Position numbers and translations under genes: made by a program
The notes under the pieces: model-generated
Seen by the model: only the letters and a program-made list of their open reading frames with translations
Told to the model about the DNA's origin: nothing
The model's database searches: none
Assembly (NCBI GenBank): GCA_012730015.1
Contig: JAAYBT010000019.1
Location: 1 to 36,258, forward strand
Length of the DNA: 36,258 nucleotides
Source: Clostridiaceae bacterium
Lineage (GTDB): Bacteria > Bacillota > Clostridia > Acetivibrionales > DTU013
Direction: 5' to 3'
Shown here: in pieces, positions 15,088 to 36,008 of the stretch
Numbering within the stretch: the stretch's first letter is position 1
How the letters are laid out: every line of letters starts with the position of its first letter

Positions 15088-16806
15088 TTACTCCTCGGCT
15101 CCCTGCCACTGTTTAGGCTCCTCCCAATTCTCCCACTCCTGCAGCTTTTCTGGATCGAGGGTAGATCCTGGTGGTGGGTTCTCTTCTTTAGGAGTTTCTT
15201 TAATGATGTCCTCTACTATGATGTCCTCTGCTTTGGTGTCTTCATTTATAGTGTCTTCCTTTATGGTGTCCTCTGCTTTGGTGTCTTCATTTATAACGTC
15301 TTCCTTTATAGTATCCTCTTTTATTGAGTCTTCACTTGTGGTGTTTTCATTTATACTATCATGTGGGAGGCTTTCTTTTTGCGAGACCAACTTTTGCTTG
15401 GCTTCTTCCTTGCACATGATTATTTCCCGGCCTCTTGTGAGTCTTTTATCTTGATTGAGCTGCCTTTTGTTTTGATCTAGTTGATTTTTGACCATGCCTA
15501 ATTGTATCGAATATTTATCAATTTCTTTTTTTAGTTCCAAATATGCGTTGGTAAGCTGGGACATTTCTCTTCTAGCTTCAGTCCACCCTTCTCTTATTTC
15601 CTCGACACTACCCTGTAGCTGGAGGAGAGTGTCGGCTACAAAACGGTTAAGATTTCGCTCGGGGATGTTCGCATTTGAACTATTGACTGAAAAAAGTGAA
15701 GAAGCGCCCCCACGAAGAGAACCGTCCCCTGATAAGAAGAGCAGTCTCAGGCCGTTTGAGAGACTTCCCGGGTATACTCCCGGCGAAAGTGAAGAACCGT
15801 CCCCCCGGAGAGAACCGTCCCCCCGGAGAGAACCGTCCCCGACGAGAGAAGCGTCCCCTTTGATGCGATCGCGGGGGCTGTTGGATTTGTAGCACAGGCA
15901 AAGCAGCTGGCTGCCGGGCTGGTTGCCATAGCGGGATGCCTTGCCCCAGTTACTGCCGTCTTGTGCGCCGCTATTATAATAAACAATGTTTTCGCGAACC
16001 CAGTAGACTATTATATTATCCTGAACTTGTAGTATGGAGGCATTTTCAAAGGAATGAACCGAGGAGTGTATTACTGTTTCGGCGGACCAAAGATTCCTGT
16101 CAGGAGCCTTCTGCTGATATACCATTTCAAAAAGCCTGGGCGTCCGCCTCTGATAACACAAATGTATCACACCGCTGCTGTCAACAAGGGCGTGCGGATA
16201 CTCGCAGTTACCTGCGTATTTAGTCACAGGGATGAAATCACTCCAATGCTTCTGCGCTGCATTGAGCTTTTTATAGCCGATTTGGAGATACTTGCCATCA
16301 TAGGATTGGTAAAAAGCATAAATATTCTGTCCCCGGTCATACACAATTGAGCAGGGCTGGCTGCTTCCAGAGACGTAATCCACTACCTTAGGCGTACTCA
16401 TCCGGAGATCATCGAGAATCTGGTAGGCCAACATAAATGAGTTATCATGTTGCAGGACATAAAAAAAGTAGAGACTGCCACTAAGGGGGGCAAGGTATAG
16501 CTGCTTATCATAGGCGGAGGGTGTCCTGCTATTAAGGACCGAAATGGTCTTTGTCGATTGGCCGTCCAGTCTGGAATAATTGATATTTCCTTTAATATCC
16601 TGAAACAGAATGTGATACACATCATCCTGGTCTATCTCGGCATAAAAATGCCGGTACACATTTTTGTGAAGTACAAATACATTACTCCAGACGCCGGTGT
16701 TTGTTAGTGTGTTGTAACATATGTTTTGCCCGGAATCACAAAAGAAGTTCCATAGCTCGCCGGTGGTCTGCCTGAAAATGAACTGCCTGTTATGAAAATT
16801 AAACAT
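15088..16806 (-). CDS. Beta-propeller-like protein with in-frame repeat insertions, coiled coil and acidic repeat tail
   Basis: Translation starts at ATG 16806 (MFNFHNRQFIFRQTTGELWN), AGAGG 5 nt upstream. Residues 1-310 are repeated beta-strand modules with aromatic and Asp-rich turns (YAEIDQDDVYHILFQD, ALVDSSGVIHLCYQRR), as in sialidase/BNR-like propellers; no signal peptide is seen. Residues about 318-375 are low-complexity GDGSLR units produced by a tandem DNA repeat. A coiled coil follows (about 385-455: VEEIREGWTEARREMSQLTN). The tail consists of five-residue units such as KEDTI, NEDTK and AEDTI, then a short Pro/Trp-rich end. This resembles a surface or spore-coat-type protein, but I recognise no named family. 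It is transcribed alone, convergent with the structured RNA. Confidence 0.7.
   Translation of the reverse strand: MFNFHNRQFIFRQTTGELWNFFCDSGQNICYNTLTNTGVWSNVFVLHKNVYRHFYAEIDQDDVYHILFQDIKGNINYSRLDGQSTKTISVLNSRTPSAYDKQLYLAPLSGSLYFFYVLQHDNSFMLAYQILDDLRMSTPKVVDYVSGSSQPCSIVYDRGQNIYAFYQSYDGKYLQIGYKKLNAAQKHWSDFIPVTKYAGNCEYPHALVDSSGVIHLCYQRRTPRLFEMVYQQKAPDRNLWSAETVIHSSVHSFENASILQVQDNIIVYWVRENIVYYNSGAQDGSNWGKASRYGNQPGSQLLCLCYKSNSPRDRIKGDASLVGDGSLRGDGSLRGDGSSLSPGVYPGSLSNGLRLLFLSGDGSLRGGASSLFSVNSSNANIPERNLNRFVADTLLQLQGSVEEIREGWTEARREMSQLTNAYLELKKEIDKYSIQLGMVKNQLDQNKRQLNQDKRLTRGREIIMCKEEAKQKLVSQKESLPHDSINENTTSEDSIKEDTIKEDVINEDTKAEDTIKEDTINEDTKAEDIIVEDIIKETPKEENPPPGSTLDPEKLQEWENWEEPKQWQGAEE
15203..15355 (-). 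repeat. 15-bp/45-bp tandem repeat coding for the acidic tail
   Basis: Units of 15 nt encode xED(T/I)(I/K) pentapeptides. A 45-nt higher-order unit (AEDTIKEDTINEDTK) is repeated almost identically, pointing to recent slippage or unequal crossing-over. Confidence 0.8.
15700..15859 (-). repeat. In-frame GGGGACGNTTCT repeats (18-bp tandem plus dispersed copies)
   Basis: On the minus strand GGGGACGGTTCTCTCC recurs, with copies exactly 18 nt apart at 15791-15859 and further copies at 15700-15729. They encode GDGSLR. The same core occurs in the intergenic element at 11533-11564, so these look like a dispersed REP-type element that entered and multiplied inside a reading frame. Confidence 0.75.
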
Positions 16807-21490: not shown

Positions 21491-22441
21491 TTAGTTTTTC
21501 AGACGATACCAGCTGATGAAGCGCTCAATCCCATCCTCCAGCTTTACCTTGGGGCTGTATCCCAATAGGTTTGCCGCTTTGCTGATATTTGCCAATGTTT
21601 TGGGAACATCACCGGGCTGCTGAGGTAAAAACCGGAGATGTGCCTGCCTTTGAAGCTTGCTTTCAATTATCCTTACAAGGGTCAAAACATCGACGGCATT
21701 TGAGTTTCCAATATTCAAAAGCTCAAAAGCACATTTGCAGTCTATGGATGCGACGATTCCATCTACCACATCATCAATATAGGTGTAGTCCCTGGAGCTG
21801 CTTCCGTCGCCGTAAATGCCGACTTCAAGCCCTCGTGAGATGGCCTTTGTAAAGATGTGAATTGCCATGTCAGGTCGCTGCCTGGGGCCGTATACGGTAA
21901 AAAACCTCAGACAGACTGTCGGTATACTATAAAGCTGATGCCAGGTCTTACACAATAGCTCCCCGGAGTATTTGGCGGCGGCATAGGGTGAGGCCTGGCA
22001 GATGAGATTGTTGCTCTCCCTAAAGGGAACCGTGCCGTTGCCGTAGACGGAAGATGAGGATGCAAAAATGAACTTGCTAACCCCATATTTTCTGCAAGCC
22101 TCCAGCATAATGACAGTACCCTTAATATCTGTGTCCACATAATCAAGGGGCGTCAGGATGGAATTCCTTACACCCGCAAGAGCTGCAAGATGCACAAGGA
22201 TATCGATATTATGCTGCTTCATAAGTCGGTCGACCAGGTCGGCGTCGAGTATGTTACCCTCCACAAGTTTGTAGCTTGGGTGCTCAAGTGCGCTGTGCAC
22301 ATTTTCTCTTTTAATTAAGGGATCGTAGTTATCCCGGAAGTTATCCAGACCTATCACATTATAGCCCAACTGCAGCAGCCTTTCACACAAGTGTGAGCCA
22401 ATGAAGCCTGCACTGCCGGTTACTAATATATTGCTCTTCAT
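21491..22441 (-). CDS. NAD-dependent sugar-nucleotide epimerase (YtcB-like)
   Basis: The 316-aa extended SDR begins with the Rossmann motif ILVTGSAGFIGSHLCERLL and has the catalytic YxxxK in SPYAAAKYSGELL plus the preceding Ser triad (FASSSSVYG). PRQRPDMAI and GDGSSSRDYTYIDDVVDGI are typical of UDP-glucose/UDP-glucuronate 4-epimerases; GDVPKT near the end favours UDP-glucuronate 4-epimerase-like enzymes. Beside a UDP-glucose dehydrogenase, conversion of UDP-glucuronate to UDP-galacturonate is the likeliest activity. It overlaps the preceding gene by ATGA, implying translational coupling in a coat-sugar operon. Compare B. subtilis ytcB near cotSA. Confidence 0.85.
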   Translation of the reverse strand: MKSNILVTGSAGFIGSHLCERLLQLGYNVIGLDNFRDNYDPLIKRENVHSALEHPSYKLVEGNILDADLVDRLMKQHNIDILVHLAALAGVRNSILTPLDYVDTDIKGTVIMLEACRKYGVSKFIFASSSSVYGNGTVPFRESNNLICQASPYAAAKYSGELLCKTWHQLYSIPTVCLRFFTVYGPRQRPDMAIHIFTKAISRGLEVGIYGDGSSSRDYTYIDDVVDGIVASIDCKCAFELLNIGNSNAVDVLTLVRIIESKLQRQAHLRFLPQQPGDVPKTLANISKAANLLGYSPKVKLEDGIERFISWYRLKN

Positions 22442-25059
22442 TTTTTACCAACTCCTTCATAGTAAAAGCCAAAGCTTCTCACATAATCCGGGTCGTAAAC
22501 ATTGCGCAAGTCCAAAAAAACCGGTTTTCTTACAATGCCTTTTAGAGCGTTGAAGTCCAGACAGGAAAACTCTTCCCATTCGGTTGCTAGTACAATGCAA
22601 TCGCTTTGAGCACAGGCAGAGTACACATCAGTAAAGTATTCCAGACTTAAATCAGGATAACTTTTTTTCATGTTCCCCATGGCTTGTGGATCATAGACTG
22701 CTACAGCAGCCTTTTTTTCTAGAAGCGATGTCAGGACTGTCAGTGAGGGGGATTCGCGAATGTCATCGGTTCCGGGCTTAAATGCAAGCCCCAACACAGC
22801 TATTCTGCGCCCCTCCAAACCATCGAGAGCAGCTTCTATTTTTCCTATCATCCTTTTTTTCTGGCGATTGTTCACTTCAAGCACACCATCCAGAAGCAGG
22901 GGCTCATAGCCGAGACCTCTGCTCAAACCGGTCAGGGCGCGGACATCCTTCGGGAAGCAGCTGCCGCCAAAGCCTGGACCGGGGTTCAGATACTGTAGTC
23001 CAATCCTCTTGTCCAACCCCATTCCCTTAGTAACTGTGCTGATGTCAATGCCGCAAAGCTCACATATATTGGCGACTTCATTAATGAAGCTAATTTTCGT
23101 AGCAAGAAAGCAGTTTGATGCATATTTTATCATCTCAGCCGCCTCAATACTTGTTACAAGCACAGGGATATTAGAATCAATCTGGCTGCGATAGATTTCC
23201 TTTACAATATTTGCTGCCCGGTCATTTTGTGCACCGATGATAATTCTATCGGGGTTTATGAAATCCCCTACGCTTGACCCTTCTCTTAGAAACTCCGGAT
23301 TGGAGACCAGGTCAAAGTCAAGCTTCTCATTTCGCTCCTTCAAAATTTCTGTGATTTCATTTTTTACCCTCATACCGGTGCCTACAGGCACAGTGCTTTT
23401 ATTAACGATGACTTTGTAGCAGCTCATATTTTGAGCGATTTCACGTGCTGCTTCTAATACATGACTGACATCGCAGGTATTGTCCTCGAGGGTTGGAGTG
23501 TTGACGGTGATGAAGATGATATCCGAGCGATTCACAGCGGCTTTAATGTCGCTTGTGAAGTGGAGGCACTTGCGTTTCTTCACACATTCATCTATGATAT
23601 CGTCGAGGGAGGGTTCGAAAATTGGTATTATGCCTCTTCTTAAGCCATTGATTTTTTCCATATCCCGGTCGCAGCAATATACATTCATGCCCATTGATGC
23701 CAGACAGGCTCCTGTCACAAGGCCAACATAGCCTGTGCCTATGATTGAGATGCTTGGCTTGGGCTTAGTCTTCGGTTTCAGCTTGCTTTTGCCGGCTTGA
23801 CGCCGGAGCTTCTTAGTCGAAGCTGAGACACGTATTTCGGGAGCCAGCTTGGCCTGTGCCATGTCAAATGATTTTTTTGGGCCCTGTGTACGGAGCTTCT
23901 CGGGAGGCATTTTGTCCCTTTCTTCCGGCACATATGCTGCAGGAAATATTTCCTCGGCGACTCTCTCCCAGCTAAATCTCTCATCAGCCATTTTTCTGCC
24001 TGCAGCGCCCATATCAAGGGATTTGTTCGGATTGTCCAGCAGATTACAGATTTGCTGAGCCATTACATCAGAGCTATCATACTCATCGATTACAATGCCG
24101 TTGCCGTACCCAGCAATCACTTCTGCATTACCGCCCCTGTTGGTCGTTATAATCGGCAGTCCTGCCGCCATGGCCTCATAGTGGACTCTGGCCAGGGGCT
24201 CGCTCCATTGAGATGCGCAAATAAACAAATCACCAATACTGTAGTAAGCAGGGATATCCGCAGGAGGGATGAAGCCGGTAAAGATAACAGGTCCGGGCAA
24301 ATTCTCCGCATAGCTGCTGATTAGCTTGGTATATTCATCTACATCGTTCTTTCCATACCACTTGCTTCCTACAATGAAAAGAGCGGTATTCTTGTGACTT
24401 TTCATCACGTTGTCCATTGCTCTCAGCAGAACATGGACGCCCTTTTTTATGCTCAGTCTGCCCACATAAAGTACAACCCTATAGTCCTCCAGCCCGTATC
24501 TTTCCTTCATTGTCTGTTTGAGCCGGGCACCCTCCTGTGTCCAGCCGGGATGATATTTCAGCGTGTCAACGCCGGAATAGACCAAACGCATTTTTCCCTC
24601 AGCGGCAGGAAATCTTCCTACAACCGTGTCTGCGATATACTGGCTTACAGTGTTGATGAATTCTGACCTTTCAATACATCTCGAAGCAAGCTCATTTGAT
24701 ATTTTTCCAACATGTAACATTTCGTTATGAAGGCTCAAACTGAATTTAGAATCGGGGAGTCCCTCCGAAAGCGCTAGCAGATATCGGGGACGATTAAATA
24801 CATGGATTAGGTCAAATTCCGGCTTCAATACTGCCTTCAGGTTTCTTACATAGGCAGTGTCCACATTGCCAGCTACTCTGATATATTTGACATTGCCTCT
24901 GGTTTCCTGCTCAGGCAGCGTGGGGTGTTGAATGCTGTAAACTGTAATGTCATGCTGCCTCGATAAATAGGGAAGGATACCGTCTATATATAATTGAATT
25001 GCACCACCGGCAATCGGCGGCATAGGAAGCTTTTCAGTACAAATTAGGGCTATTTTCAA
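22438..25059 (-). CDS. Fusion: GT4 glycosyltransferase (CotSA/YtcC-like) with UDP-glucose 6-dehydrogenase (YtcA-like)
   Basis: One open frame of about 873 aa joins two enzymes. I prefer TTG 25059 because AAAGGAG lies 8 nt before it; the track GTG overlaps that RBS. Residues 1-377 are a GT-B glycosyltransferase: GGAIQLYIDGILPYL, YVGRLSIKKGVHVLLRAMD, and the GT4 donor motif EPLARVHYEAMAAGLPIITT. A basic linker (about 378-438, KSKLKPKTKPKP) leads into UDP-glucose dehydrogenase: IIGTGYVGLVTGACLASMG, VNTPT, NPEFLREGSS, the catalytic GFGGSCFPKD (Cys704 in track numbering) and VLGLAFKPGTDDIRESP. The dehydrogenase makes UDP-glucuronate and the transferase may consume it or a derivative. Homologous functions are separate genes in B. 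subtilis. Confidence 0.9.
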   Translation of the reverse strand: MKIALICTEKLPMPPIAGGAIQLYIDGILPYLSRQHDITVYSIQHPTLPEQETRGNVKYIRVAGNVDTAYVRNLKAVLKPEFDLIHVFNRPRYLLALSEGLPDSKFSLSLHNEMLHVGKISNELASRCIERSEFINTVSQYIADTVVGRFPAAEGKMRLVYSGVDTLKYHPGWTQEGARLKQTMKERYGLEDYRVVLYVGRLSIKKGVHVLLRAMDNVMKSHKNTALFIVGSKWYGKNDVDEYTKLISSYAENLPGPVIFTGFIPPADIPAYYSIGDLFICASQWSEPLARVHYEAMAAGLPIITTNRGGNAEVIAGYGNGIVIDEYDSSDVMAQQICNLLDNPNKSLDMGAAGRKMADERFSWERVAEEIFPAAYVPEERDKMPPEKLRTQGPKKSFDMAQAKLAPEIRVSASTKKLRRQAGKSKLKPKTKPKPSISIIGTGYVGLVTGACLASMGMNVYCCDRDMEKINGLRRGIIPIFEPSLDDIIDECVKKRKCLHFTSDIKAAVNRSDIIFITVNTPTLEDNTCDVSHVLEAAREIAQNMSCYKVIVNKSTVPVGTGMRVKNEITEILKERNEKLDFDLVSNPEFLREGSSVGDFINPDRIIIGAQNDRAANIVKEIYRSQIDSNIPVLVTSIEAAEMIKYASNCFLATKISFINEVANICELCGIDISTVTKGMGLDKRIGLQYLNPGPGFGGSCFPKDVRALTGLSRGLGYEPLLLDGVLEVNNRQKKRMIGKIEAALDGLEGRRIAVLGLAFKPGTDDIRESPSLTVLTSLLEKKAAVAVYDPQAMGNMKKSYPDLSLEYFTDVYSACAQSDCIVLATEWEEFSCLDFNALKGIVRKPVFLDLRNVYDPDYVRSFGFYYEGVGKK

Positions 25060-25060
25060 G

Positions 25061-26095
25061 CTACTCACTCCTTTTTAGCAAAACTGCCAGAGCTTCTTCC
25101 TTTGAAAGCTCAAATCTTGCAATCTTTTCTATTTCAGAAGGCCTCAGGGATTTACCCTTTTGAAACAGATTTTTCACCAGCCCGAAAAACCAATGTGGAT
25201 ATGTCAGGTCGGTATAGAGTATATCCTTTTCCTTCTCGGAAAGGGGGTTGATTTGCGTGTACCAACTGAGGATTTGTTCGATTGTATCGCAGGACCAAAG
25301 CCCAGCATTCTCGCAAGCTTTGCCGATGATTTTTCTTAGATCCCTTGCCGGCAGATCATAGGTTACTCCATCTAAATCAATCACATAGGTTCCATCTGCT
25401 GCATCAAGGACATTTCCTCTTCCGAAGTCCTGATGACAAAGCACAATAGAGGGGGAGCCCTCCTGTGTCAGATGTAAATAGTCTGATTCCGAGAGTCTTT
25501 TCAAAGCCAGATCGGCAAGGGCTATAATCTGGTCTATATATGCCAGGTAAGCCTGATAAGGCTCTTTAGAGGCCCCGGAGGAGACTTCCTTCCATTCAAG
25601 CATCCTCCTCTTCATGGAGTTATACTGATCCGGCCACTTTCTCAGCTTTGTGGATATTCTGCATTGCTCATTGGGAATATAGCCCCTTGAGGCAACATGA
25701 AATGCGGCCAGACCCTGCACGGCCTTTCGAAAATCTGTTGTAAGTGAGAAATTCAAGTCGCTGCCATTAATCCACCCGTAGAGTACAAATAATTGACCCT
25801 CATATTCGGTAATGGCTTGTTTGTCTCTATTTAAAATAATTCCGGGAACCTTACCGCCGGAATTCCTAATATATATTTGAGCGTTGACGGAAAATAGAGC
25901 TTTGTCAAGGGTCTGCTTTAGACGTTTGAGACAGAGCCAGCTACCGCTCGCGTTGACTTTCCAGACAGTCTTAATGGTGCCTGCCTGGATCAACACAAGC
26001 TTTTCCGGATTGATGCTGTATCTGCCTAACACATGAGTCGCAGTGGCCTCAAGATTTTCTTCAGTAATTCCTTTTCTATCTATCAATAGTCTCAT
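25061..26095 (-). CDS. CotS-family spore coat kinase-like protein (second copy)
   Basis: The protein is 344 aa if ATG 26095 is used; AAAGGA abuts that ATG, so the TTG at codon 4 may be the real start. It has the aminoglycoside-phosphotransferase/choline-kinase fold of CotS: N-lobe VWKVNASGSWLCLKRL, hinge-like ITEYEGQLFVLYGWINGSDL, catalytic loop LCHQDFGRGNVLDA (HxDxxxxN) and metal Asp in YVIDLDGVTYDL. CotS and YtaA-type proteins are spore-coat associated, and members have been proposed as spore sugar kinases. The stop lies 1 nt from the GT4-UGDH start, whose RBS is inside this gene, so the two are tightly coupled. Confidence 0.85.
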   Translation of the reverse strand: MRLLIDRKGITEENLEATATHVLGRYSINPEKLVLIQAGTIKTVWKVNASGSWLCLKRLKQTLDKALFSVNAQIYIRNSGGKVPGIILNRDKQAITEYEGQLFVLYGWINGSDLNFSLTTDFRKAVQGLAAFHVASRGYIPNEQCRISTKLRKWPDQYNSMKRRMLEWKEVSSGASKEPYQAYLAYIDQIIALADLALKRLSESDYLHLTQEGSPSIVLCHQDFGRGNVLDAADGTYVIDLDGVTYDLPARDLRKIIGKACENAGLWSCDTIEQILSWYTQINPLSEKEKDILYTDLTYPHWFFGLVKNLFQKGKSLRPSEIEKIARFELSKEEALAVLLKRSE

Positions 26096-31875: not shown

Positions 31876-33411
31876 ATGGCAGATAAGATAAATGAGCGGC
31901 AGGTGAATTCTATTGATAATGGACGGGCCGAGCTGGAGGATAGGAGGCAAATAGAGCAGAATAATAGGGAGCAAGCGATGCTGATATTTGAGATGAGCAG
32001 GGATGGGAGAAGGGCATATAGCCTGCCCGCCTGTGACGTACCAGTGAAGGAGGGCTTGATTCCCGACGCTTTTGCCAGAAGAAGGGATGCCGATCTGCCC
32101 CAGGTCAGCGAAGTAGACGTGGCCCGGCATTACACGCGGCTTGCAGGACGTAACCACGGTGTGGATTCCAGCTTTTATCCACTTGGCTCCTGCACAATGA
32201 AATACAATCCGAAAATCAATGAAGAAATAGCCTCTCTTGATGGATTTACAGGGGTTCACCCCTATCAGAATGAGGAATCTGCTCAGGGCAGCCTGCAGGT
32301 ACTATATGAAATGGACAGGATGCTCTCGGAGATAACTGGTATGAAGCGTGTAACACTGCAGCCTGCGGCAGGAGCTCATGGCGAATTGACTGGACTTATG
32401 ATAATCGGTGCATATCATAGAAGTCGCGGCGATGCGGCGCGGACAAAGATAGTTGTTCCGGATTCGGCGCATGGGACAAACCCGGCTTCGGCAGCCTTTG
32501 CAGGCTTTGAGGTGGTTGAGGTGAAGTCGAATCCGTCAGGCGGAGTAGACATCGAAGACCTAAAGCTTGCTGTGGGTCAAGATACAGCCGGATTGATGCT
32601 GACAAATCCCAATACCCTGGGATTGTTTGACGAGAATATTGAGGAGATTGCCAGGATTGTCCACGATGCAGGCGGGCTCCTGTATTATGACGGCGCCAAT
32701 GCCAACGCAATAATGGGCATTTGCAGGCCAGGCGATATGGGCTTTGATGTGGTACACCTGAATTTACACAAGACCTTCAGCACTCCGCATGGCGGCGGCG
32801 GACCGGGTTCGGGCCCTGTTGGGGTTAAAGAGGAGCTTGTTCCCTTTTTACCGGTACCGGTGGTGGAATGTGAAAATGACCGATATTGGCTGGATTATGA
32901 CCGGCCCCAGACAATTGGGCGCGTGAGATCCTTCTATGGAAACTTTGGGGTTGTGCTCAAAGCCTATGCTTATATTAGGACAATGGGTCCCGATGGTCTC
33001 AAAAATGTTTCGGAGTTGGCTGTGCTAAATGCCAACTATATGATGAAGCGACTGGAGGATTCCTTCGACATCCCCTATAAACGCATTTGCATGCATGAGT
33101 TTATTTTGTCCAATAAGAAGCAGGAGCACAATGGCGTGCGTACGCTAGATATAGCTAAAAGGCTGCTGGATTTCGGCTATCACCCGCCAACTGTTTATTT
33201 CCCGCTGATTGTACATGAAGCAATGATGATCGAGCCTACGGAAACAGAGAGCAAGGAGACGCTGGACAGCTTTGTAGACGCGCTTATCAGCATTGCCCGG
33301 GAGGCGGAGAATGAACCCGACAGGGTCAGGAAGGCCCCTTATACAACTGTCGTTTCAAGGCTGGATGAGGTCAAGGCAGCTAGGAATCCTGTGCTGAAGT
33401 GGGGAGATTGA
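31876..33411 (+). CDS. gcvPB: Glycine dehydrogenase (decarboxylating) subunit 2
   Basis: ATG 31876 ([14 protein letters not shown]) follows gcvPA by 1 nt and has GGAGG about 12 nt upstream. This subunit carries the PLP lysine in [21 protein letters not shown]. Family motifs: [38 protein letters not shown], and [16 protein letters not shown]. Canonical GcvPB begins near the LIFEKSRPGR motif, so the first 35 residues ([20 protein letters not shown]...) are extra, polar and probably disordered. An internal ATG at 31978 (MLIFEM) would remove them but has a poor RBS. The 511-aa length is otherwise normal. Confidence 0.94.
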
Positions 33412-33415
33412 TAGG

Positions 33416-33856
33416 ATGAACGAAGAGGTATTCAGGGAAATGGGGAAGGAGCTCCAGATCAGGCGTGAGGACTTGAAGATGTATTCGCCCCTTGTGCTGG
33501 CCTATGTGGGCGATGCGGTTTTTGAGCTTTATATAAGAACGCTGCTGGTCGGCAAGGGCAACGCGCCGGTCCACAAGCTTCATAAGCAGTCCATTGACTA
33601 TGTGAAGGCAAAATCACAATCGGACACCATTCACAGGATGCTTGAGGACTTGTCAGCCGAGGAGCAGGATGTTGTGCGCAGGGGCAGGAATGCCAAGTCC
33701 GGTACTATTCCTAAGAATGCAGATGTGACAGACTACAAATATGCAACGGGCTTTGAGAGCTTGATAGGATACCTCTATCTGAAGGAGGACTATCCACGGC
33801 TACTGGAGCTGCTGAAAATCTCGGTTGAAAGCAATCATGAGGACAAAAAGGCATAA
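33416..33856 (+). CDS. mrnC: Mini-ribonuclease III
   Basis: The 146-aa protein is a stand-alone RNase III catalytic domain that matures 23S rRNA precursor ends. The catalytic region YSPLVLAYVGDAVFELYIRT contains the Asp, and the partner helix includes GFESLIGYLYL. The absence of a dsRNA-binding domain defines MrnC. It starts 4 nt after gcvPB, with GGGGAG about 10 nt upstream. In most Firmicutes it directly follows cysS, so its position after the glycine-cleavage cluster marks an insertion into that block. Confidence 0.93.
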   Translation: MNEEVFREMGKELQIRREDLKMYSPLVLAYVGDAVFELYIRTLLVGKGNAPVHKLHKQSIDYVKAKSQSDTIHRMLEDLSAEEQDVVRRGRNAKSGTIPKNADVTDYKYATGFESLIGYLYLKEDYPRLLELLKISVESNHEDKKA

Positions 33857-33974
33857 GGGCAGGCAGAGGAGCGAAGGCTAAGGCTGAGACATTGAGGGCC
33901 GGTGCAAGAGGAAGCAAAGAATAGGCTAAGAGCAGGCGAAGAATAGGCGAAAATGGGAGTTAAGGAAGGATAAA

Positions 33975-33998
33975 GTGAACTTGTATGGCAGCAGATAG
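33975..33998 (+). other. Possible 7-codon leader ORF overlapping the rlmB start
   Basis: AAGGAAGGATAAA precedes a GTG that opens MNLYGSR and then stops inside the rlmB frame. The rlmB ATG itself has no well-placed RBS, so this minicistron could couple translation to rlmB. The short length makes chance likely. Confidence 0.3.
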
Positions 33999-35109
33999 AA
34001 AAGGAAAATTTAGCAAGGATAACCGCAATGTGAGCCCTGGCGATAGGCGGGGCGAAGGCCGATACGAGAGCCGGAACGATAGGCGGGGCGAAGGCAGGAA
34101 GGAAAACGAAGGCGAAGCCTGGAACAAAAATGTTAACCGCAGCAGAAACGAAAACCCCGTGGATAGGCGGGGCGAAGGCCGATACGAGAGCCGGAACGAT
34201 AGGCGGGGCGAAGGTAGGAATAAAAACGAAGGCAGAAAAATTGCTTATAAGGGCGAGAAGGCAAATAAGAGAGATTTCAAAAGCGAAAGCATTGACAGGA
34301 GTGAGAAGCTGAGAGATAGCCTTAAGAACGAGTTTATGAAGCCGGACATTGAGGGCTTTCATGAGGAGCAGGACTTGCTGGAGGGTAGAAATTCGGTGCT
34401 TGAGGCACTCAGGTCTGGCAGGAGCATCAATAGGATATTCGTTGCAAAGGGTGACCGTGAGGGTTCAATAAACCAGATAATAGCAATGGCCAGAGAACGC
34501 CATACTATTATCCAGGAGGTCGACAGGTCCAAGCTGGATGCAATGTCACAGACATTTGCTCACCAAGGGGTAATAGCCCTAGTAGCCGCCAAGGATTATG
34601 TCGATGTGGACGATATCCTGAAGGCTGCGCAAGAGAGCGGCCGACCACCCTTCATTATCATATTGGATGAAATAACAGATGCTCATAATCTGGGATCGAT
34701 TCTAAGAACTGCGAATGCCGCAGGGGTACATGGAGTTATTATTCCGAAGAGAAGGGCGATTGGGCTGACCTCAACTGTTTCGAAGGCCTCGGCCGGCGCG
34801 GTTGAATATGTTCCTGTAGCAAGGGTTACGAATATAGCACAAACAATAAAGAATCTGAAAAAGCAGAATATTTGGGTAGTCGGCACGGATGCAACAGGGG
34901 AGAAGGCCTACTTCGACAACGATCTATCAGGACCCATTGCGCTTGTAATCGGCAGCGAGGGAGAGGGAATGGGCAAGCTGATTCGGGAGAGCTGCGACTT
35001 TGTTGTAAATATTCCTATGCTGGGGCAGATAAGCTCCTTGAATGCGGCTGTAGCGGGGGCTATTGTTACCTTTGAAATACTGAGGCAGAGAAGTAATAAG
35101 CAGCCTTGA
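33985..35109 (+). CDS. rlmB: 23S rRNA Gm2251-type 2'-O-methyltransferase with repetitive N-terminal extension
   Basis: The C-terminal 250 residues are a SpoU/TrmH methyltransferase: substrate-binding domain LLEGRNSVLEALRSGRSINR, motif 1 DEITDAHNLGSILRTANAAGV, motif 2 ALVIGSEGEGMGKLI, and the knot motif IPMLGQISSLNAAVAGAI. That set fits RlmB. The first 115 residues are a hydrophilic Arg/Glu/Gly/Asn-rich extension (DRRGEGRYESRNDRRGEGRN), encoded by a 59-bp direct repeat 120 bp apart; they may contact RNA. The start ATG 33985 has only a distant RBS. Some clostridial RlmB proteins carry similar extensions. Upstream 33857-33984 is purine-rich with fragments of the same GATAGGCG motif. Confidence 0.93.
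   Translation: MAADRKGKFSKDNRNVSPGDRRGEGRYESRNDRRGEGRKENEGEAWNKNVNRSRNENPVDRRGEGRYESRNDRRGEGRNKNEGRKIAYKGEKANKRDFKSESIDRSEKLRDSLKNEFMKPDIEGFHEEQDLLEGRNSVLEALRSGRSINRIFVAKGDREGSINQIIAMARERHTIIQEVDRSKLDAMSQTFAHQGVIALVAAKDYVDVDDILKAAQESGRPPFIIILDEITDAHNLGSILRTANAAGVHGVIIPKRRAIGLTSTVSKASAGAVEYVPVARVTNIAQTIKNLKKQNIWVVGTDATGEKAYFDNDLSGPIALVIGSEGEGMGKLIRESCDFVVNIPMLGQISSLNAAVAGAIVTFEILRQRSNKQP
34042..34220 (+). repeat. 59-bp direct repeat (120-bp period) in the rlmB extension
   Basis: Copies at 34042-34100 and 34162-34220 begin GATAGGCGGGGCGAAGGCCG and differ at one position (34095 C, 34215 T). The near identity including third positions shows a recent duplication that preserved the frame. Each copy itself contains the GATAGGCGGGGCGAAGG unit twice. 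Confidence 0.9.
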
Positions 35110-35120
35110 TTGGTGTCTTA

Positions 35121-35336
35121 TCGCATTTTTAGCCGGTGAGGGCTGGGGCAACTCGAGGGTTGCGTGAGTATAGCTTACCAGACAGGATTATTAGCCTGCG
35201 ACGGAAAATGCGACCTTGCATGCATACGAAGCTATGCTCCGGTATCGCGCCAACTTGACATAAAGGCTTGTGAACCTTATAATTGAGTATGGTGAAGCCA
35301 AGTATACTGCCATGATCATCAGAAGAATCGCATTTT
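35121..35336 (+). promoter_or_regulatory. Leader region with three mutually pairing 9-nt segments before sigH
   Basis: TCGCATTTT occurs at 35121-35129 and again at 35328-35336, immediately before the sigH ribosome-binding site; AAAATGCGA, complementary to both, lies at 35205-35213. The first pair would enclose a branched domain that contains GCAAC/GTTGC. Pairing with the second copy would lie next to the sigH Shine-Dalgarno. The consensus promoter at 35255 starts after the middle segment, so only read-through mRNA from rlmB could use the switch. Confidence 0.4.
35255..35283 (+). promoter_or_regulatory. Perfect consensus sigma-A promoter for sigH
   Basis: TTGACA, exact 17-nt spacer, TATAAT; the expected start is near 35290, leaving a leader of about 65 nt. 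Confidence 0.85.
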
Positions 35337-35354
35337 GTATGAGGGGGCATATTA

Positions 35355-36008
35355 TTGAAGCTAAATGCTCGAGCCGAGGCACAATTAATTTACAATCCGG
35401 CAGATGACGAGGAAATCATCAGAGACGCAAAAGCTGGTGATGGCCGGGCCCTCGAATTTCTGATCAACAAATACAAGAGTTTTGTCCGAGCTAAGGCTAG
35501 GACCTATTTCTTAATTGGTGCTGACCGGGAAGATATAATTCAAGAAGGTATGATTGGCCTTTACAAGGCCATAAGAGACTACCGAGGGGACAAGCTCTCA
35601 TCATTCCGGGCTTTTGCTGAGCTTTGTATTACGCGTCAGATAATAACGGCAATAAAGACGGCTACCCGGCAGAAGCATATTCCGCTCAATTCCTACATAT
35701 CCCTTAACAAGCCTATCTTTGATGAGGATTCGGATCGTACACTTCTCGACATACTGAGCGAGGAGAATATTAACGACCCCGAGGAAATGATGATAAACAG
35801 GGAGGAATTTGCAGGGATTGAAGTGAAGATGGGTGAAATCCTTAGCAGCCTTGAGTGGGAGGTTCTATCCAGGTATTTGCAGGGGCGCTCTTACCAGGAA
35901 ATCGCCGTTGACCTGAACAGGCATGTCAAATCAATAGACAATGCCCTACAGCGCGTGAAACGCAAGCTGGAAAAGCATTTACAGGAGAACAGAGAAGACA
36001 AAAATTGA
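35355..36008 (+). CDS. sigH: Sporulation sigma factor SigH
   Basis: A TTG start with GAGGGGG 7-9 nt upstream; the 217-aa length suits the sigma-H (Spo0H) group. Region 2 is clear: ALEFLINKYKSFVRAKARTYFLIGADREDIIQEGMIGLYKAIRDY, with DIIQEGMIGL typical of region 2.2, then FRAFAELCITRQIITAIKTATRQKHIPLNSYISLNKP. Region 4 is WEVLSRYLQGRSYQEIAVDLNRHVKSIDNALQRVKRKL. SigH directs early stationary-phase and pre-septation sporulation genes. A consensus promoter and an unusual leader precede it, and tRNA genes follow. Confidence 0.93.
   Translation: MKLNARAEAQLIYNPADDEEIIRDAKAGDGRALEFLINKYKSFVRAKARTYFLIGADREDIIQEGMIGLYKAIRDYRGDKLSSFRAFAELCITRQIITAIKTATRQKHIPLNSYISLNKPIFDEDSDRTLLDILSEENINDPEEMMINREEFAGIEVKMGEILSSLEWEVLSRYLQGRSYQEIAVDLNRHVKSIDNALQRVKRKLEKHLQENREDKN

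Follow-up and report, generated by a model that had tools for sequence, protein, structure and literature searches.

A charged, repeat-built N-terminal tail on a predicted RlmB methyltransferase and its counterparts across a bacterial order

The window analyzed here is a 36,258-nucleotide stretch of contig JAAYBT010000019.1 from a 278-contig, about 87% complete assembly (GCA_012730015.1). Judging by its named relatives, the source organism, which is uncultured, belongs with Acetivibrio, Ruminiclostridium, and Herbivorax in one order, and "the order" carries that meaning in all comparisons below. Toward the end of the window, mrnC is followed by a purine-rich gap and then by rlmB, with sigH downstream. 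Positions are those of the window.

33416 to 33856, plus strand: mrnC (Mini-RNase III; PF00636, 85.2 bits), an upstream neighbor kept in most relatives
33857 to 33984, no strand assigned: intergenic gap between mrnC and rlmB, purine-rich (76%), containing a 22-bp imperfect tandem
33985 to 35109, plus strand: rlmB, 374 amino acids, with an ATG start and a frame open from the ATG at 33985
33985 to 34374, plus strand: N-terminal tail (residues 1-130), mixed-charge and of low complexity, predicted to be disordered except for a weak helix at residues 102-118
34375 to 35106, plus strand: RlmB core, in which an L30e-like substrate-binding domain precedes a SPOUT methyltransferase domain bearing the motifs NLGSILR, VIGSEGEG, and SLNAAVAGAI

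A previous reading of the same DNA from its sequence alone (hereafter the sequence-only reading) had assigned the gene to RlmB, and profile scoring agrees. The TIGR00186 RlmB equivalog matches residues 129-369 with 257.8 bits, above its cut-off of 160.15. PF08032 (L30e-like substrate-binding domain) covers residues 131-205 and is followed by PF00588 (SpoU methylase) at 223-362; the SPOUT motif residues N235, G237, R241, G323, E325, L352, and N353 occupy invariant columns in an 18-sequence alignment. Residues 132-370 align to residues 15-253 of a solved relative, E. coli RlmB (1gz0; E=8e-55). The score against PRK10864 (YfiF) was 77.1 bits, below the cut-off of 267, and does not support membership in that family. 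Judging from these matches, the product is predicted to be a regular RlmB, the 23S rRNA Gm2251 2'-O-methyltransferase, with intact SPOUT domains.

A highly charged tail had also been proposed ahead of the SpoU domain, and both composition and domain positions confirm it: K/R account for 28% and D/E for 22% of residues 1-130, with a net charge of +7. AlphaFold gives pLDDT values of about 40-46 (about 42) for residues 1-100 and a weak helix at 102-118, with the core modeled confidently (mostly >80); residues 1-100 are thereby predicted to be intrinsically disordered. An RGG-box RNA-binding tail was considered and rejected: no RGG occurs in the tail, and the repeated unit, DRRGEG, is nearly balanced in charge. 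The purine fraction by codon position is 0.81 (first), 0.83 (second), and 0.49 (third), counted over codons that are non-independent owing to repeat copies; a bias at the first two positions and not the third is as expected if driven by amino-acid composition. With the tail as query, no similar tail was found among other proteins of the same genome, a search limited by the low complexity of the sequence.

The internal organization of the tail comprises two repeat copies, each with two smaller units.

34035 to 34113, plus strand: repeat copy 1, 79 nt, extended match
34042 to 34058, plus strand: DRRGEG unit 1, exact pattern
34078 to 34094, plus strand: DRRGEG unit 2, exact pattern, 36 bp after unit 1
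34155 to 34233, plus strand: repeat copy 2, 79 nt, 73/79 identical (92%) to copy 1
34162 to 34178, plus strand: DRRGEG unit 3, exact pattern, 120 bp after unit 1
34198 to 34214, plus strand: DRRGEG unit 4, exact pattern, 120 bp after unit 2

The 59 nt at 34042-34100 recur at 34162-34220, a spacing of 120, with one mismatch (C at 34095, T in copy 2; 58/59 identical) and a longest exact run of 53 nt. The tail's best repeat score is 64.5; 60 codon-shuffled versions of it gave at most 13.0. The coordinates and shuffles bear out the near-perfect direct repeat recognized from the sequence and, with repeat steps of 36 and 120 that are both multiples of three, growth of the tail by in-frame repeats. 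Codon differences between the 79-nt copies comprise two synonymous changes and three that alter the residue. Each copy carries, 36 bp apart, two instances of a 17-18-nt unit, GATAGGCGGGGCGAAGG(C), which encodes DRRGEG. The 2.85-Mb assembly contains exactly four occurrences of the 17-nt GATAGGCGGGGCGAAGG, all of them in the rlmB tail (reversed control, 0). The further proposal that the tail was built by recent duplication holds for the copying of the repeat and fails for a fresh, clean 120-bp tandem, since similarity at a lag of 120 spans only 79 of 120 bp and each copy has an extra 36-bp step. The sequence would be better explained by an earlier 36-bp step, after which 120 bp were copied and later subject to loss or replacement.

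The suggestion that the repeat extends into the upstream noncoding gap was not sustained. The best match between gap and tail scores 12.0, within the shuffled range (maximum, 12.5), and the GAATAGGC fragments in the gap belong to a separate 22-bp imperfect tandem (33906-33949; self-score 14.0, reached by 0 of 60 shuffles) that is not homologous to the tail repeat. Given that the mrnC-rlmB gap varies freely in length and purine content among relatives, it falls outside the tail system. The two genes usually adjoin directly in the order; in many other members of the class and phylum, a spacing of about 700-1000 bp leaves room for a gene. A search for structured RNA within 33300-35400 returned no Rfam match at E≤1, and terminator-like and promoter-like sites showed no excess over shuffles. 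On the sigH side, a perfect sigma-70 promoter, TTGACA-17-TATAAT (12/12), lies at 35255-35283, about 70 bp ahead of sigH, which starts at 35355.

Other repeats and an apparent fusion gene occur elsewhere in the window. A GGGGACGGTTCT array at 18-bp steps (15718-15858, minus strand) lies inside the open reading frame at 15088-16806 and translates as GDGSLR repeats. The 12-mer has 101 genome copies (42 forward, 59 reverse; reversed control, 0), clustered and in both orientations, and is a dispersed REP-like element that in the window sits within a reading frame. The 572-amino-acid protein of that frame had no Pfam or NCBIfam match; its acidic EDTI/KEDT/NEDTK C-terminal stretch, encoded by 15-bp tandem repeats (15203-15355, minus strand), is a second repeat-grown charged tail in the window. 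At 22438-25068, also on the minus strand, an 876-amino-acid apparent fusion joins a GT4 glycosyltransferase (residues about 27-374) to a TuaD-like UDP-glucose 6-dehydrogenase (440-875), and an APH-family kinase-like gene (25061-26095) adjoins it.

We compared RlmB tails among relatives. Tail capacity was measured as the stop-to-stop open frame with a threshold of at least 275 codons, which overstates protein length, equally across groups. This length was reached by 98% of 54 order members (median, 313). In the other orders of the class the proportion was 38% (108 members; median, 261), and in a 145-genome phylum sample it was 24% (median, 259). The order's tails mostly span about 32 to 203 residues and are rich in K/R/D/E/N/G; those within the source genome's own family measure 58, 58, 75, 130, 140, and 203. 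Composition is steady across families (K/R mostly 0.22-0.33, D/E mostly 0.14-0.28, few hydrophobics), net charge is usually slightly positive, and the tails of several species are built from mutually unrelated in-frame repeats. Because nearly all relatives in the order have tails, several with repeats of their own, the tail represents a lineage habit rather than an oddity of the source genome. Many bacterial RlmBs have none. In a phylogeny built from 110 cores, 13 gains or losses are needed to account for tails of at least 30 codons, versus a mean of 35 for shuffled labels, and such tails fill the order's clade almost completely; this clustering indicates that the order has long had the tail and that it was gained or lost several further times elsewhere. 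A Sericytochromatia match from outside the phylum (L063) has its own DRPARSSSYNRD-type repeats in the tail. In two other matches (L052 and L069, G004), the sequence consists of N across the rlmB tail region, possibly because repeats could not be assembled.

The tail appears to be translated and loosely constrained, because tails of close relatives show dN/dS values of 0.14-0.74 where measurable (mostly 0.14-0.37). Cores range from 0.01 to 0.16, and in close pairs tail values exceed core values by factors of several to about 25; the relatives searched were all from outside the genus. In the eight strongest repeat-bearing tails, every period is divisible by 3, and since codon shuffles likewise favor multiples of 3, this is supportive and does not amount to a probability. 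A relative from the same family (G002, L003) carries thirteen 8-amino-acid units starting with DRKPY, mostly DRKPYGD[RN], in which the motif is kept and codons vary mainly at synonymous sites. At the codon level, this array reads as a clean case of protein-level constraint.

These comparisons also bear on where translation begins. If the true start were downstream, at V16 or M118, the 5' part would be an untranslated purine-rich repeat. In-frame GTG (34030) and ATG (34336) codons are available for this, and the best purine-rich, ribosome-binding-like sequence, AGGAAGG, lies about 15 nt from the ATG at 33985, longer than usual. We nonetheless regard a downstream start as very unlikely, since relatives keep the ATG, the frame, and the R/K-rich beginning, the tail has a synonymous excess, and repeat periods are multiples of 3. 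The comparison of RlmB N-termini recommended by the sequence-only reading thus came out in favor of the upstream ATG: start, frame, and tail composition are kept and tail dN/dS is below 1, making a start near MKPDIEGF unlikely. It is harder still to credit the repeat as an assembly artifact of a metagenome bin. The assembly comprises 278 contigs and the tail region of a relative reads N, but 6 of 79 bases distinguish the two copies, ordinary short reads are longer than the repeat, and tails of their own are present in related genomes, including single-contig ones. Least probable of all is an origin of the repeat from a dispersed or mobile DNA element by chance insertion into the gene. The GGGGACGGTTCT element, with its many copies and an array inside another reading frame of the window, offers a precedent in the same genome; the rlmB repeat, however, is found only in rlmB, and a 496-bp query gives no other significant place in the genome. 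With only four units, all in the rlmB tail, this origin is refuted within the assembly as far as it is complete.

The reading we favor, and consider probable, is a regular RlmB with a translated, disordered, mixed-charge tail that is shared by the order, undergoes repeat-driven turnover, and would tether rRNA or pre-50S particles, tethering being its most likely function. Short in-frame repeats would expand and contract by slippage or recombination, so that tail length and exact sequence would change fast, and what selection would retain is chiefly the reading frame and a composition of K/R interspersed with D/E, G, and N. Projecting from the L30e-like RNA-binding domain, the tail may make weak, sequence-nonspecific contacts with 23S rRNA or pre-50S particles, which would raise the local substrate concentration and leave the methylation site unchanged. 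The sequence-only reading had suggested a role in rRNA or ribosome-precursor binding, which is plausible. Two points count against a tether: the modest net charge implies that simple electrostatic attraction would be weak, and a nearly neutral spacer would be expected to be loosely constrained as well. The main rival, possible though doubtful in our estimate, is a tail that is translated but nearly neutral, at an N-terminus tolerant of repeat growth whose sole requirement is not misfolding. The wide range of lengths within the order, repeat units unrelated between species, tail dN/dS far above that of the core, and the many tailless bacterial RlmBs all fit near-neutrality; dN/dS values that mostly stay within 0.14-0.37, a composition constant across families, and the retention of a tail by nearly every order member speak against it. 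We find it improbable that RlmB in the order doubles as an RNA-assembly factor, whose fast-evolving charged tail would act on pre-50S rRNA apart from methylation, either as a chaperone or within RNA-rich condensates, with changes in repeat number tuning the effect.

Our literature search, which covered few subscription journals, found no work describing bacterial rRNA methylases whose disordered tails are built from repeats, or bacterial RlmB with tails throughout an order. E. coli RlmB (YjfH, 1gz0) shares the domains, motifs, and family of the present protein and is without its ~130-residue disordered tail, given that the match begins at residue 15 of a 253-residue chain. N-terminal extensions of the eukaryotic MRM1/MRM3 type can include import signals. 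In mitochondrial MRM1 and MRM3 (eukaryotic COG0566B/C), a charged N-terminal extension likewise precedes a 2'-O SPOUT enzyme whose modification target is large-subunit rRNA (PMC1829167, PMC9508554); they are eukaryotic, unlike the present RlmB, and the tails are without sign of homology. RNase E, also a bacterial RNA enzyme, carries a region that is likewise disordered and noncatalytic (PMC4435900); this arm differs from the present tail in being C-terminal, in scaffolding named partners, and in belonging to a different enzyme. A 2007 SPOUT survey ascribed charged N-terminal extensions to YfiF of E. coli and to eukaryotic relatives, and not to other members of these families, bacterial RlmB included (PMC1829167). 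YfiF (PRK10864) and its orthologues form a paralogous lineage, whereas the present protein matches the RlmB equivalog. Because the survey places such extensions on YfiF and eukaryotic relatives, an order-wide tailed bacterial RlmB extends the known kind, and a whole bacterial order keeping charged N-terminal tails on RlmB itself amends a small statement of that survey. The order thereby provides a natural series, in which a single conserved enzyme core is joined to tails of about 32-203 residues made from different repeats, that is useful for testing the role of disordered charged arms on an rRNA-modifying enzyme.
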